The notes beneath the pieces were generated by a model. It was not told the origin of the DNA and did not search any database. It worked only from the letters and a program-made list of their open reading frames with translations. The translations under genes were made by a program, and so were the position numbers. A DNA stretch of 64,000 nucleotides from an uncultured Planctomycetales bacterium (lineage in GTDB: Bacteria; Planctomycetota; Planctomycetia; Isosphaerales; Isosphaeraceae): contig CAIYJE010000189.1 of NCBI GenBank assembly GCA_903926465.1, positions 62,001 through 126,000 on the forward strand, read 5' to 3'. Numbering within the stretch: the first letter of the stretch is position 1; each line of letters begins with the position of its first letter. Of the stretch, positions 6,166 to 24,403 are shown one piece after another.

Positions 6166-8415
6166 ATGAGCGTGGCACTACTTTCGTTGATTTTACTGGG
6201 AAATGGCCTGGCTATCGACTCGGGTCAGCCGATCGGATATCAGGTCAAGGTTCATGAGATGGAGGGGCTCGAATGGCGCAGCAGTCTCCATGCACGGCTC
6301 ACCCAGATCGATCGACCTGGACGCGCAACCGTTTGGGTTGCTCCCAAGGATACAGCGTCTGAAATCGCAGGCAAAGCAAGCCGCGTACTCTTCGCTCCCA
6401 AAATGGTTGGCGAAGGGGGTATTTCTGGTTCGGTCAGGCAGACCACCGAGCACCCTTACATTGCCGATCTCACGCGTGAAGCCAACGGGCCCGTGGACCA
6501 GGCAACTGCCCTGATGTTCAAGCCCACCATGGACTACTGGCAAGAATCGCTTGCGGTTGAGGCGCATTGCCAGCGAATGCCCACCGGCGTGCTCACGGCC
6601 GTGAAGCTGGAAGAGTCTCACCTGATCTCCATGGTCACTTACAATTTCAGTGAGCAGGTCAAGCTGGTGAACGCCACTGGCCAAGTTCAACTCACCCGGC
6701 TCAACGGCCAGATTCAGGTACCAGAAGTGGCCACCGGTCAGGTGGATGGTGAGTGGCTTATCCCTCACGAACATACACTCATTGTTTCGCTTGGAATCCA
6801 CACGGTCTTGCGCGAAAACAAGCCGGTGGTTACGGAACGGGTGGCTGTGATCACACCGGAACCCTCGCACGTACTGCCGGTAGATTCTGCCCCAGCAGAT
6901 AAGGCCATGACGCTGGCGGCCACGCCACCGAACACGCCACTGGGCGGCAAGAAGCCGTTGAACGACCGCAAAAAAGTGGCTCCGCCGCTGCCGATCGGCG
7001 AATCTGGGCAGTGGGTCGCTTCGGCTAGCCCACCTGCCGCTCCGAGCGCCGCGACCTCCGTGAGCCCGATTGTGATCAATGCACCGACCCAGGGAGCGAT
7101 TGTCGTGATCATTCCTGCTCAGGGGCAGGGGACGGCCGAGCTGGTAAACCTGGCGTTGAATACGCTGAGCGCGAAGCCAGCCCCAGAGCCAGAGATCCAG
7201 AGCACGCAGCCTGCTCAGGAGTTAGCACCAGACGCCGCACCGCCACCGCCAGACACCGCAACTCTCCCCTCTGCGTCCTCGCCACCGCCAGACTCGGTTC
7301 CGCCGCCGCCAGCCGCGCCTGCTGACGCCACTCCGGCTCCGGTTACGCCCGACCCGCCGGTGAGCCCGTTCGCTGACAAGTATCCTGTGCCCACCGATCC
7401 AGTGGCCAACTTCGCCCCACCGCTGCCAAGCGTGTCGCTTCCGTTGGCGCTCGATGCCGATGGCAATGTGATCGCTTTGCCGCCAGGCGACGACACCGTT
7501 TTGCCAGTTGGCTTACCAGGCGAGCAAGGCCCCGCGTTGCCATCTCCTTCAAGTCCAGCCATCCCATCGGGACCAGACGCGTTCTCACTCGCCCCCACCT
7601 ACCACGCGCAACGGACGATCCGGATCACCGGCACGTTTCACGATGGCCAGGGCTGGAAAGCCTTGTCCGAGAGCAAGTCTGGGGCTGATACGGTTGCCGG
7701 CAAGAAGGCCGCTTCTGCTACCTCCGCCGACCGACTTCATGCCTGCGACTCTGGCGAGGAACAACTTTCCGAGGGAGCAGAGCAGGCAGGCACGCTTTCG
7801 TGCCCCAAGGATCAAGTATCGACAAGCATTCTCGACGAGATCCGCCAGCGTCTGACCACCTCGCTTGGTATCGCTCCAGATGGTGAAGTCATCCGGGTCA
7901 AGGATCTTACGACCGAGGAACTGCCGGCCCCAGCCCCTGAAGCAGACAGTTGTTGCGAGGACGCCAAGAACAGCGTAACTCTGAAGCCGCACCGCCCCAC
8001 GTTCCAGCAATTCATGGGTTACAGTCAGGCCTGCTCGATCAGCACGGAAATTGCCACGGCACTGATGGGCGAATTTTCAGCAGCGCTGCCGGTCCAGATG
8101 TCCCAGGTCGAAATTGGGACTCAAATCATGGTTCATCTTCAGCGGTGCGGTCGCCAGCCGGTTGTGTTCCTGGGCACGGCTCCAGTGGCGTATCGCGACA
8201 TTGAGCTGGCTCGAACCTCGGACGATGGGGCCGCTACGCCGGTCAAGCCGATGCGAGCCATCGGGCTGGTGGTTGGCAATCAGACGCTTTCGGTCCGAGA
8301 TGGGCAGTTTCCAGGCACAACGCGGGTTCGGCTGCCGATCGGCGGCCTTCTCGCCGTTGAGTTCCGCAATGACGTGCGTCCAGCAGAGTGCCGGACGTTG
8401 CCCGCAGCCAAATGA
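6166..8415 (+). CDS. Secreted proline-rich protein of unknown function
   Basis: A 749-residue protein I do not recognise. The start is supported by a strong GGGAGGGAGG Shine-Dalgarno at 6148-6157. The first 16 residues are hydrophobic (SVALLSLILLGNGLA) and look like a short signal sequence. Residues about 17-230 are a folded-looking region rich in beta-type sequence. A long Pro/Ala/Ser-rich linker occupies roughly residues 270-480, and a second compact region with several cysteines follows (SCCED near 600, QACSIS, LQRCGRQ). The layout suggests two extracytoplasmic domains joined by a wall- or periplasm-spanning linker. The gene is monocistronic, flanked by a hairpin at 8429-8463. Confidence 0.75.
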   Translation: MSVALLSLILLGNGLAIDSGQPIGYQVKVHEMEGLEWRSSLHARLTQIDRPGRATVWVAPKDTASEIAGKASRVLFAPKMVGEGGISGSVRQTTEHPYIADLTREANGPVDQATALMFKPTMDYWQESLAVEAHCQRMPTGVLTAVKLEESHLISMVTYNFSEQVKLVNATGQVQLTRLNGQIQVPEVATGQVDGEWLIPHEHTLIVSLGIHTVLRENKPVVTERVAVITPEPSHVLPVDSAPADKAMTLAATPPNTPLGGKKPLNDRKKVAPPLPIGESGQWVASASPPAAPSAATSVSPIVINAPTQGAIVVIIPAQGQGTAELVNLALNTLSAKPAPEPEIQSTQPAQELAPDAAPPPPDTATLPSASSPPPDSVPPPPAAPADATPAPVTPDPPVSPFADKYPVPTDPVANFAPPLPSVSLPLALDADGNVIALPPGDDTVLPVGLPGEQGPALPSPSSPAIPSGPDAFSLAPTYHAQRTIRITGTFHDGQGWKALSESKSGADTVAGKKAASATSADRLHACDSGEEQLSEGAEQAGTLSCPKDQVSTSILDEIRQRLTTSLGIAPDGEVIRVKDLTTEELPAPAPEADSCCEDAKNSVTLKPHRPTFQQFMGYSQACSISTEIATALMGEFSAALPVQMSQVEIGTQIMVHLQRCGRQPVVFLGTAPVAYRDIELARTSDDGAATPVKPMRAIGLVVGNQTLSVRDGQFPGTTRVRLPIGGLLAVEFRNDVRPAECRTLPAAK

Positions 8416-20001: not shown

Positions 20002-21054
20002 ATGCCCCAGAACCTGCCGATCAGCGATCCCGCCCCCATCTTCGACCACTTTCGCGGGAACTTTGCCACGGAACTCCTCACGGCGGCCGTGGCTCACTTT
20101 GGTCTGTTCGGCCGGCTGGCCACAGAAGGGCCAACCCCGTTTGAAACTCTCAGGCAATCGCTCGGGCTTGAGCAGCGACCGATGCAGGTCCTGACCACTG
20201 CGCTCAAGGCCATGAACCTTCTCCAGGACCAAGCCGGAGAACTCGCCCTGACCGAACTGGCGCAAACCCACCTCGTTCCTGGAACCCCTTTTGATGTTGG
20301 TGATTACATCGGCCTCATGGCCGACAATCCTGGCGTCAAGGCCATGGTGGAACGGCTTCAGTCCAACCGCCCGGCCGGATCAGGCGACTCAGAAGGGCCT
20401 GGCGTTGCGTACATCTATCGAGAAGGAATGGTCTCGGCCATGGACGGCGATGCCTCCGCACGCCACTTCACCATGGCGCTTGCCGCCCGGGCCCGGAACG
20501 TGGCCCCCGTGCTGGCCCAGGCCTGGCCGCTGCCAACGGCCAAACGCCTGCTCGACGTTGGTGGCGGTTCCGGACTTTACGCCATCGCTTATCTCCTGGC
20601 CCACCCATACCTGGAAGCCGTGGTGTGGGACCGGCCAGAGGTCCTGAAAGTGGCGGCTGAGCTCGCACGCCAGTCCGGTGTCGAAAGCCGACTCGTGCTC
20701 ACTCCGGGTGATATGTTCAGCGACCCCGTCCCTGAAGGTTGCGATGTTCACCTGGTCTCCAACGTCTTGCATGACTGGGATATTCCCGAATGCTGCAAGC
20801 TCATCAATCGCCTGGTCCCAGCCCTGGCACCTGGCGGCCAGTTGCTGGTGCATGACGTGTTCCTGAACGACACCCTCGACGGCCCCTTGCCGATTGCCCT
20901 CTACTCCGCCGCTCTGTTCTCCCTTACCGAAGGCCGGGCCTATAGCGCGGCCGAGTACCGAACCTGGCTCAACTCCGCAGGCCTCGAAACCAGCCGCCAG
21001 ATTGTGCCAACTTTGGTGTCTTGCGGCGTTCTGGCCGCCACCAAGCCCGCTTGA
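20002..21054 (+). CDS. O-methyltransferase-like protein (Methyltransf_2 family)
   Basis: A 350-residue protein with the architecture of acetylserotonin/hydroxyindole O-methyltransferases and polyketide-tailoring methyltransferases. An N-terminal winged-helix dimerisation region (about 10-100) is followed by the SAM-binding fold with LLDVGGGSGLYAIAYL near residue 180, the acidic VVWDRPEV and a VHLVSNVLHDW motif bearing a His at the position of the usual catalytic base. Members methylate small-molecule hydroxyls, but the substrate is not predictable here. It is transcribed alone, with 269 bp before efp. Confidence 0.85.
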   Translation: MPQNLPISDPAPIFDHFRGNFATELLTAAVAHFGLFGRLATEGPTPFETLRQSLGLEQRPMQVLTTALKAMNLLQDQAGELALTELAQTHLVPGTPFDVGDYIGLMADNPGVKAMVERLQSNRPAGSGDSEGPGVAYIYREGMVSAMDGDASARHFTMALAARARNVAPVLAQAWPLPTAKRLLDVGGGSGLYAIAYLLAHPYLEAVVWDRPEVLKVAAELARQSGVESRLVLTPGDMFSDPVPEGCDVHLVSNVLHDWDIPECCKLINRLVPALAPGGQLLVHDVFLNDTLDGPLPIALYSAALFSLTEGRAYSAAEYRTWLNSAGLETSRQIVPTLVSCGVLAATKPA

Positions 21055-21323: not shown

Positions 21324-21878
21324 ATGAAAGCTTCTGAAGTCCGCAAAGGCCAAGTTGTTGTTATGGATGGAACGAACTTCATCGTTCTTGACTTTGCGCA
21401 CCGGACTCCCGGTAACTTACGCGCATTTGTCCAGATGAAGCTTCGGAACCTCTCAAGCGGATCCCAAGTTGAAAAGCGGTTCCGGTCCGACGAGCAACTC
21501 GACGTTCCGTATGTAGAACATCGTGACTTCGAGTACCTGTACTCGCAGGGCGACGAGCACGTGTTCATGGACGTGGAAAATTACGACCAGCTCACGTTTG
21601 CCGAGAGCATGGTGGGAGACTCGATGAAGTACCTGCTGCCCAACATCCGGGTGCAAGTGACCTACATCGACAACAAGGCCACCTCCATTGAACTGCCGGC
21701 CACGGTGGAACTGGTTGTGACCGACACCCCGCCCTCCATCGCCGGCGCAACCGCAACCAACCAGTACAAAGATGCAACGCTTGAGACGGGCCTGATTGTG
21801 AAGGTTCCTCCCTTCATTGAGGTTGGGACCAAGATCAAAGTGGATACCCGATCGAGCGAGTACCTTTCCCGCGTCTAA
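21324..21878 (+). CDS. efp: Elongation factor P
   Basis: A 184-residue EF-P of normal length with the three beta-barrel domains. EF-P binds between the P and E sites of the ribosome and relieves stalling at polyproline. The start MKASEVRKGQVVVMDG and the C-terminal KVPPFIEVGTKIKVDTRSSEYLSRV are typical. The domain I loop that usually reads PGKGxAF or PGRGxAF reads TPGNLRAF here, placing Asn31 where the modified Lys or Arg normally sits. This may mean an unmodified EF-P or another modification route. An in-frame TTG at 21252 is rejected because the family begins at MKAS. A hairpin terminator follows. Confidence 0.93.
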   Translation: MKASEVRKGQVVVMDGTNFIVLDFAHRTPGNLRAFVQMKLRNLSSGSQVEKRFRSDEQLDVPYVEHRDFEYLYSQGDEHVFMDVENYDQLTFAESMVGDSMKYLLPNIRVQVTYIDNKATSIELPATVELVVTDTPPSIAGATATNQYKDATLETGLIVKVPPFIEVGTKIKVDTRSSEYLSRV

Positions 21879-22475: not shown

Positions 22476-22643
22476 CGGTTTGAGGCGGCCCTCGTATCGT
22501 GCCGGATAACACTGGAAGAGTTCGGAAACCGGTCAATCGATCGGTTTCGGGCCCACCCGGCGGTCTTTCGGCCCGCGCCTGAAGACCTCGCCTGCCTGCG
22601 CCAGCGCACCGGGATATCCAGCCTATTGCAGCGGGAGCTTTTT

Positions 22644-23816
22644 GTGGATCTCGTGACACAACTTCTGTCGGATCTGGTTCGCATTCCAAGCGTGAACCCG
22701 ATGGGACGGGCAGGAGCCACGCGAGCAGACGGTTTTTTTGAAACCGATGTCACGAATTATCTGGAAACCTACCTGACCGCTCAGGGGGTGACGTGCCATC
22801 GGGTTCCGGTTTCTCCCGGACGAGATAACCTTTTTGCGTATTACGAAGCACCCAATCCCGGCAAGCGGCTTCTGTTCGACGCCCACCAGGACACGGTTCC
22901 TGTTGAGGGGATGATTGTGCCGCCGTTCGGGGCACACATCGAAGGGGGACGGCTGTACGGCCGGGGGGCCTGCGATATCAAGGGGGGCCTGGCCGCCATG
23001 GTGCTCGCGTTCCTGCGGCTGGTCCGGGAACGACCCAAGCATTCCGCCTCGGTGGTTCTCGCCCTTACCGTGGACGAGGAATATACCCATATGGGCAGTT
23101 CGGCAATTGCCAAGTTACCCCCAGAGGGGATCGACCTGGCCATTGTTGCCGAGCCCACCCGATTCGACCTGATCACCACCCACAAAGGGGCCGTTCGGTG
23201 GAAAATTGAGTCGCGCGGCACCGCCTGCCATAGCTCAACCCCAGACCGGGGCGACAACGCCATTTACAGGATGAGCCGGGTACTCCACGTTCTTCAACGT
23301 CATGCCCAGGAGCTCCAGGGGAGCACACCAGACCCAATCCTTGGCGCACCCAGTCTCTCCGTGGGAACCATTCACGGTGGCGTGAGTCCGAACGTGGTTC
23401 CTGATGAGTGCGTCATCGAACTCGATCGGCGGGTGATTCCGGGCGAGAACCCAGACCATGTCCCCACGCTGGTCACCGAAGCGCTTCGCTTGCACCTGTC
23501 CGCGGAAGACTTTGACCAGCTTGCATTCCACGTTCCATGGGTGCGAATGCCGGCTCTCAGGTCCTCTGTTTCCAGTTCGACGTTAGAAATTCTGAGCCAG
23601 TGCGTGGCGCGTCAGACGGGCCGAAACCCCCTGGTAAGCGGCGTGCCGTTTGGAACCGATGCGGGGCCACTGGGGCAAATAGGCATCCCCTGCGTGGTGC
23701 TTGGACCTGGAGACATTGCCCAAGCACATACCAAAGACGAATGGATTGATCTCGACCAGTTGCGATATGCAGTCGATGTCTACTTTGACCTCGCCTGCTG
23801 CCTGGGTGCCAGTTGA
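22644..23816 (+). CDS. M20 family deacylase/peptidase (ArgE/DapE-like)
   Basis: About 390 residues. This is a two-zinc amidohydrolase of the ArgE/DapE/CPG2 type, acting on N-acyl amino acids or small peptides. Metal-binding motifs appear in order: DAHQDTVP, GACDIKGGLAA, the catalytic Glu pair in TVDEEYTHMGS, the Asp/Glu ligand in VAEPT and the final His in AQAHTKDEW. The dimerisation lid domain lies around residues 175-290. The GTG at 22644 is preceded by GGGAG with good spacing; a TTG at 22626 is possible. It could serve arginine or lysine synthesis, but the sequence does not choose between ArgE and DapE. Confidence 0.86.
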   Translation: MDLVTQLLSDLVRIPSVNPMGRAGATRADGFFETDVTNYLETYLTAQGVTCHRVPVSPGRDNLFAYYEAPNPGKRLLFDAHQDTVPVEGMIVPPFGAHIEGGRLYGRGACDIKGGLAAMVLAFLRLVRERPKHSASVVLALTVDEEYTHMGSSAIAKLPPEGIDLAIVAEPTRFDLITTHKGAVRWKIESRGTACHSSTPDRGDNAIYRMSRVLHVLQRHAQELQGSTPDPILGAPSLSVGTIHGGVSPNVVPDECVIELDRRVIPGENPDHVPTLVTEALRLHLSAEDFDQLAFHVPWVRMPALRSSVSSSTLEILSQCVARQTGRNPLVSGVPFGTDAGPLGQIGIPCVVLGPGDIAQAHTKDEWIDLDQLRYAVDVYFDLACCLGAS

Positions 23817-24061: not shown

Positions 24062-24403
24062 TCAGAACACGTCGAGCGTGAAGTGATGACCCTGGTAGAA
24101 CTTCTTGTTGGTCCAGTCGCTGAACCAACCGTGTGGGTGACGCATTCCAAGAACGCGCTGACCACCGTAGTAATTGCGGTACATCGGACCTTGAATCTGA
24201 GGTACGATGCGCTGCTCACGAGGGTAACGGTACCACCCGTCGTAAAGCTGGTTACCTTCAGCGCCGTTTCCTGGCGTCTGCGGTGGCGCATAAGGCCAGT
24301 GCAGGTAATCGTTCCAATCCTGGGCGCGGGCCGAACCAGCACCGGTCGAGAGCAGCATAGCAGCGCCAAGCAAGGCCGCTGTGAAGAGAGATCGAGGAGC
24401 CAC
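24062..24403 (-). CDS. Small secreted Tyr/Trp-rich protein
   Basis: A 113-residue protein read from a GTG preceded by a perfect GGAGG. Residues 1-27 form a signal peptide ending SARA, with cleavage expected before QDWNDY. The mature 86 residues are rich in Tyr, Trp, Pro, His and Gly (LHWPYAPPQTP; YDGWYRYPREQ; YRNYYGGQR; HPHGWFSDWTN) and end in a FTLDVF tail. No family recognised. The strong Shine-Dalgarno, signal peptide and strong terminator argue for a real, well-expressed gene. It is divergent from the M28 peptidase. Confidence 0.8.
   Translation of the reverse strand: MAPRSLFTAALLGAAMLLSTGAGSARAQDWNDYLHWPYAPPQTPGNGAEGNQLYDGWYRYPREQRIVPQIQGPMYRNYYGGQRVLGMRHPHGWFSDWTNKKFYQGHHFTLDVF

Follow-up and report, generated by a model that had tools for sequence, protein, structure and literature searches.

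The window, that is, the whole 64,000-nucleotide stretch of DNA analysed here, carries a gene for elongation factor P (EF-P) flanked by an O-methyltransferase-like gene and a peptidase gene (Table 1). By translation the EF-P gene is complete, and its product passes the NCBIfam family models TIGR00038 (216.7 bits vs. a cut-off of 185.8) and NF001810, contains all three Pfam EF-P domains (PF08207, PF01132, and PF09285), and falls below both EfpL models (152.3 bits, cut-off 216; 143.5 bits, cut-off 264.05). An AlphaFold2 model built from 22 sequences (mean pLDDT 88.2, pTM 0.65) adopts the EF-P fold, and its top PDB matches in Foldseek were EF-Ps. Because the modelled strands span residues 17–27 and 35–42, the beta3/beta4 loop at residues 28–34 would have the standard seven residues. 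Codons 28–36 read ACT CCC GGT AAC TTA CGC GCA TTT GTC. In an alignment with solved EF-Ps, Asn31 lies opposite the lysine of the PGK motif, whose E. coli counterpart is the modified Lys34; codons, translation, and alignment thus uphold the central claim of the initial annotation, namely that an asparagine occupies the usual modification site. That reading missed a second, coupled residue—Arg33, the counterpart of E. coli Q36 rather than a tip residue—on which the working of the loop may depend.

Table 1. Features of the efp locus, in window coordinates
Feature	Position	Strand	Basis
O-methyltransferase-like gene (PF00891), upstream neighbour of efp	20002..21054	+	domain match; adjacency to efp partly conserved in the family
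efp, elongation factor P, 184 aa, Asn-tip type	21324..21878	+	family and domain scores, alignment, AlphaFold2 model
beta3/beta4 loop codons TPGNLRA (residues 28–34)	21405..21425	+	model strand ends, codons
Asn31 codon AAC, E. coli Lys34 position	21414..21416	+	alignment, codons
Arg33 codon CGC, +2 arginine accompanying Asn tips	21420..21422	+	alignments, tree comparison, codons
M20-family peptidase / ArgE-DapE-like gene, downstream neighbour of efp	22626..23816	+	domain matches, family neighbourhoods

Proline-rich proteins are indeed encoded near efp, as had been pointed out for positions 6166–8415. This forward-strand open reading frame of 749 residues (11.5% proline, five overlapping PPP, no Pfam match) holds the motifs APPPPD, SPPPD, and VPPPPA; across 37 hand-picked open reading frames of the window we counted 88 PP and 11 PPP, and the PPPNVTG motif is kept in the source genome's own ValS. 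Together, the ValS motif and the PPP and PPD motifs of window proteins point to a need for relief of stalling. Elsewhere in the neighbourhood, a small reverse-strand open reading frame (24062–24403) separates the M20 and M28 peptidase genes; its N-terminus resembles that of a secreted protein, and counterparts with 58–77% identity stand at the equivalent position in most of the family neighbourhoods that were read. An Rfam search of the window returned no match.

We surveyed EF-P loops in a class sample of 148 genomes, reading them in 124, with the rest mostly lacking a match or falling outside the matches listed. The tip was asparagine in 71 genomes, lysine in 51, and arginine in two, counts that are not independent, as genomes cluster by family: the 71 comprise 37 genomes from the window's own family (f1), 30 from a second family (f88), and four from a third (f91). 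Within f1, 37 of the 38 sampled genomes yielded a loop (the exception, G357, had no match), in every case with asparagine, which makes a sequencing or base-calling error an unlikely source of Asn31, and we rejected it. Likewise, all 30 f88 genomes with a match have the Asn tip. Outside the class, asparagine was found in 65 of 102 genomes read (two of these also have a Lys-tip copy), and the other 37 have lysine only. This sample took the leading entries of a ranking by similarity to the window's Asn-type protein, plus 17 regions chosen for EpmB (15 of which gave an EF-P), so its proportions are biased and we use from it only the lack of overlap between Asn tips and EpmB. A search of a named-locus collection with the window protein recovered the Asn tip at 10 of 42 loci, of which five bear Acidobacteria, Thermoanaerobaculia, or Holophagales in their titles and one bears Puniceicoccaceae. 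As judged from these loops, the Asn tip is the rule in the window's family and frequent in its phylum; a view of it as unusual for the lineage is not supported.

Profile searches were made for EarP and EpmA in the class genomes and for EpmB in the class and the wider phylum, covering the known modification-enzyme families as judged by curated cut-offs. A check for epmA, epmB, and earP had been recommended, and in the source genome none was found above cut-off: the EarP and EpmB models had no match, and the EpmA model gave only matches below its cut-off, such as every genome yields from lysyl-tRNA synthetase. Class-wide, EpmB is present above cut-off in 67 of the 148 genomes and EpmA in 71; neither passed in any of the 71 Asn-tip genomes, where EarP is absent too. 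The 51 Lys-tip class genomes include 49 with EpmB above cut-off, 47 of these with EpmA as well and the other two just under the EpmA cut-off. The Lys-tip genome G260 has EpmA and an EpmB score of 367.7 (cut-off 369.3), and G249, also Lys-tip (TPGKGVP), has neither enzyme. EarP was detected in two class genomes, both with an Arg tip in the loop SGRNAA. These two genomes, of one genus (G291 and G311; loci L063, L062, and L109), have no EpmB match, but their EpmA-model match exceeds the cut-off at about 300 bits and may be a remnant of an earlier system.

Beyond the class, EpmB did not reach its cut-off in any of the 65 Asn-bearing genomes, nor in the ten genomes of the named Asn-tip loci, two of which apparently repeat the class genomes G365 and G264. 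Among the 37 Lys-only genomes it was found in 15, which were chosen for it, and not in the remaining 22, mostly with PGKGP or LGKGG loops. Some relatives have lysine 2,3-aminomutase-like genes, which were considered as candidates; their products, at 460–600 aa, score under the EpmB cut-off, and the source genome has none. Such a gene lies within about 3–7 kb of efp in three family genomes (G361, G294, and G365; loci L299, L300, and L301), followed at L300 by two ATP-grasp genes resembling D-Ala-D-Ala ligase, a GNAT gene, and a GNAT-histone-deacetylase fusion; the aminomutase gene is absent from most family genomes, the window's own included.

The source genome (G000; 6.9 Mb, 207 contigs, 99.7% complete) encodes two EF-P homologues, the second on another contig (G000:C200, locus L001). 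Its loop, QSPSARGAATLY (SPSARGAAT), is Arg-tipped and of the EfpL type; the protein scores best on the EfpL model, at 205.2 bits just under the cut-off of 216, and reaches 181.9 bits on TIGR00038 (cut-off 185.8). By these scores and its loop we class it as EfpL-like, without being a standard EF-P. The initial annotation had raised a second EF-P with a standard Lys or Arg loop elsewhere in the genome; an Arg-loop paralogue does exist, but it is this EfpL-like protein, and no EF-P with a standard Lys or Arg tip is encoded in the genome. At least two homologues occur in 35 of the 38 sampled f1 genomes, and the loop P[S/T]ARGAA is found in all ten second copies read from the family, that of the source genome among them. 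The source genome also has two ABCF-type C-terminal domains above cut-off, so other factors, the EfpL-like paralogue among them, may help on polyproline. In f88, 28 of the 32 sampled genomes have one detected homologue, two have two, and two have none; the single homologue is of the Asn type, so the Asn-type EF-P must carry the function there, if any does. A different second homologue, with a Gln-type tip (QKTAQRKPVLQ), sits beside an Asn-tip EF-P in G343 (L122).

The asparagine does not vary on its own. Across 19 aligned Asn-tip EF-Ps, no variation occurs at P29, G30, N31, or R33; in a larger set of 221 dereplicated sequences, arginine at +2 accompanies 112 of 115 Asn tips vs. 2 of 93 Lys tips, leaving three Asn-tip exceptions without it and a few without the proline. 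Position 28 is threonine in 108 of the 115 Asn-tip rows vs. lysine in 20 of the 23 Lys-tip rows that share their clade, and position 32 is leucine, tryptophan, lysine, or arginine in Asn-tip rows vs. glycine in all 23. Within these alignments, then, the asparagine appears as one part of a cassette, TPGN[L/W/K]R, in place of KPGKG[P/Q/N/G]. G375 has a pair of tandem Asn-tip efp genes (L071:4083-5281), one of which reads PGNLP and lacks the +2 arginine.

In a tree built with the loop columns removed, 55 Lys-tip rows of the EpmB type formed one clade (SH-aLRT 99), and a 147-row clade (SH-aLRT 94; many inner branches weak) held all 115 Asn-tip rows together with 23 Lys-tip Planctomycetota rows, these last from genomes without EpmB above cut-off. 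Parsimony counted 14 Asn/Lys changes. On a first, quicker tree only four independent pairs had good support, too small a number for a test (p 0.125). On a more careful tree of 108 rows, again with the loop columns removed, there were eight independent pairs, and for trait pairs picked after the loops had been seen, the +2 arginine went with asparagine in 7.2 of them on average (median p 0.016, range 0.008–0.070), loss of the +1 glycine in eight of eight (p 0.008), and the −3 threonine in five, with three not differing (median p 0.06).

How does this protein compare with characterised EF-Ps? With the EpmA/EpmB-modified type of E. coli it has in common orthology, domains, loop length, and proline at −2; it differs in its Asn tip, its +2 arginine, threonine rather than lysine at −3, and the lack of EpmA or EpmB above cut-off. 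The EarP type, with rhamnosyl-Arg at the tip, has no proline at −2 and occurs with EarP, as in the two class genomes noted above; the window protein, with Asn31, Pro29, and no EarP match, differs in all three respects. EfpL (YeiP) is likewise an EF-P paralogue, with a longer loop and arginine at its tip, whereas the window protein has a loop of standard length in the model and scores below both EfpL models. Finally, an actinobacterial subfamily, reportedly described by Pinheiro in 2020, is said to be active unmodified with the motif PGKGP, and PGKGP loops occur in genomes related to the source genome. The logic proposed for both is the same, loop sequence in place of modification, but the actinobacterial type keeps lysine and stiffens its loop, whereas the window type (TPGNLRA) has asparagine and arginine.

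By its tip, its proline, and the lack of EpmAB, the window protein belongs instead with the Asn-tip EF-Ps of the literature, as that group is described in the available text of PMC2821294 and PMC6544042. Such proteins have been counted in print since 2010 and again in 2019: in those portions, asparagine makes up 2.2% among organisms without yjeA/yjeK (PMC2821294) and is always accompanied by proline at −2 (PMC6544042), and an excerpt of PMC11611912 lists asparagine among EF-P tip residues. The same excerpt describes Arg33 of EfpL as unmodified and its Arg loop as working in that state, and the stiffer loop of the actinobacterial subfamily as also active without modification. The available portions of these three papers hold no mention of the +2 arginine coupling, which is a testable new detail. 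A literature search of incomplete coverage, hence a weak sign of absence, returned no assay or experiment on any Asn-tip EF-P and nothing on EF-P in Gemmata. The window protein therefore joins a group that is recorded but uncharacterised.

We think it reasonably probable that the Asn-tip EF-P is a normal orthologue that acts unmodified on polyproline-stalled ribosomes, Arg33 standing in for the modified side chain. In the available text of PMC2821294, Arg32 of Thermus thermophilus EF-P is reported to contact or lie near C75 of the tRNA CCA end, so an arginine in an EF-P loop can do such a job. We accordingly picture the protein as follows, starting from what holds for the family at large. EF-Ps are usually taught as requiring a modified loop, and their entry into the E site is established. 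The window protein would enter in the same way, and the modified tip side chain (beta-lysyl-Lys or rhamnosyl-Arg) would give way to the chemistry of TPGN[L/W/K]R, presenting a short, neutral asparagine at the tip and an Arg33 that could reach the P-site tRNA at its CCA end or 23S rRNA close by. More broadly, we put at about an even chance the proposal that this four-position cassette, with the +2 arginine taking over, constitutes a third route to modification-free EF-P, repeatedly swapped with KPGKG in genomes without EpmB (the 14 parsimony changes) and extending beyond Planctomycetota to the loci titled Acidobacteria/Thermoanaerobaculia and Puniceicoccaceae.

Four other explanations were weighed. 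First, Asn31 or Arg33 might be modified by a yet-undescribed enzyme such as a glycosyl- or methyltransferase, for which the upstream O-methyltransferase-like gene is the candidate. We consider this unlikely: although the gene immediately precedes efp here and in a number of relatives, only some of the family neighbourhoods keep it there, a homology comparison did not recover it around efp in f88 loci, and PF00891 enzymes act on small molecules. According to the available text of PMC6544042, over half of bacteria lack a known EF-P modification enzyme, which leaves room for such an enzyme, but the repeated swaps between Asn/Arg and Lys-Gly-Pro loops in genomes without EpmB are simpler without a dedicated one.

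Second, the Asn-type EF-P could have lost the classic polyproline role, leaving that work to EfpL and ABCF proteins. The EfpL-like gene and ABCF domains of the source genome, like the frequency of second homologues in f1, fit this idea, yet we hold it to be rather improbable, given the single Asn-type homologue detected in most f88 genomes and a loop conserved more strongly than expected under decay. Third, the site may have drifted neutrally after its modification ceased, Arg33 having no particular role. Loss of EpmAB would lift selection for lysine, and Asn-tip EF-Ps were already known, but only lysine and asparagine are common at the tip, with no spread of residues, and positions 28, 31, 32, and 33 switch together; we regard drift as quite improbable.

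Last, addition of an aminobutyl group to EF-P by the deoxyhypusine-synthase-like (DHS-like) protein of the source genome (G000:C126, 232 bits) seems highly improbable, since asparagine lacks the type of side-chain amine on which DHS acts, and we rejected the protein as a strong lead: such genes, which pass the cut-off in 122 of the 148 class genomes, are spread over both Asn- and Lys-tip families, and this one scores 567 bits on a homospermidine-biosynthesis model (cut-off 450), falls below the cut-off of every DHS model listed, and follows a pyruvoyl-dependent arginine decarboxylase gene, fitting polyamine synthesis. The available text of PMC6544042 suggests that DHS-like proteins might modify EF-P in certain prokaryotes whose tip is Lys or Asn, but a Thermus homologue couples two agmatine molecules toward homospermidine (PMC10981699, in the part available), which together with the model score and decarboxylase neighbour makes a polyamine role likelier.

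Returning to the reading that we prefer, in which the unmodified loop does the work, the many Asn-tip bacteria without EpmA, EpmB, or EarP, including one family without a second homologue, make the replacement of modification by loop sequence directly testable, with Arg33 singled out as the residue to change. Two genomes, G220 (L022 and L161) and G231 (L134 and L135), each encode both EF-P types, Asn-tip (PGNLRAF) and Lys-tip (PGKGPAY), and would be useful for comparing the two within one cell.
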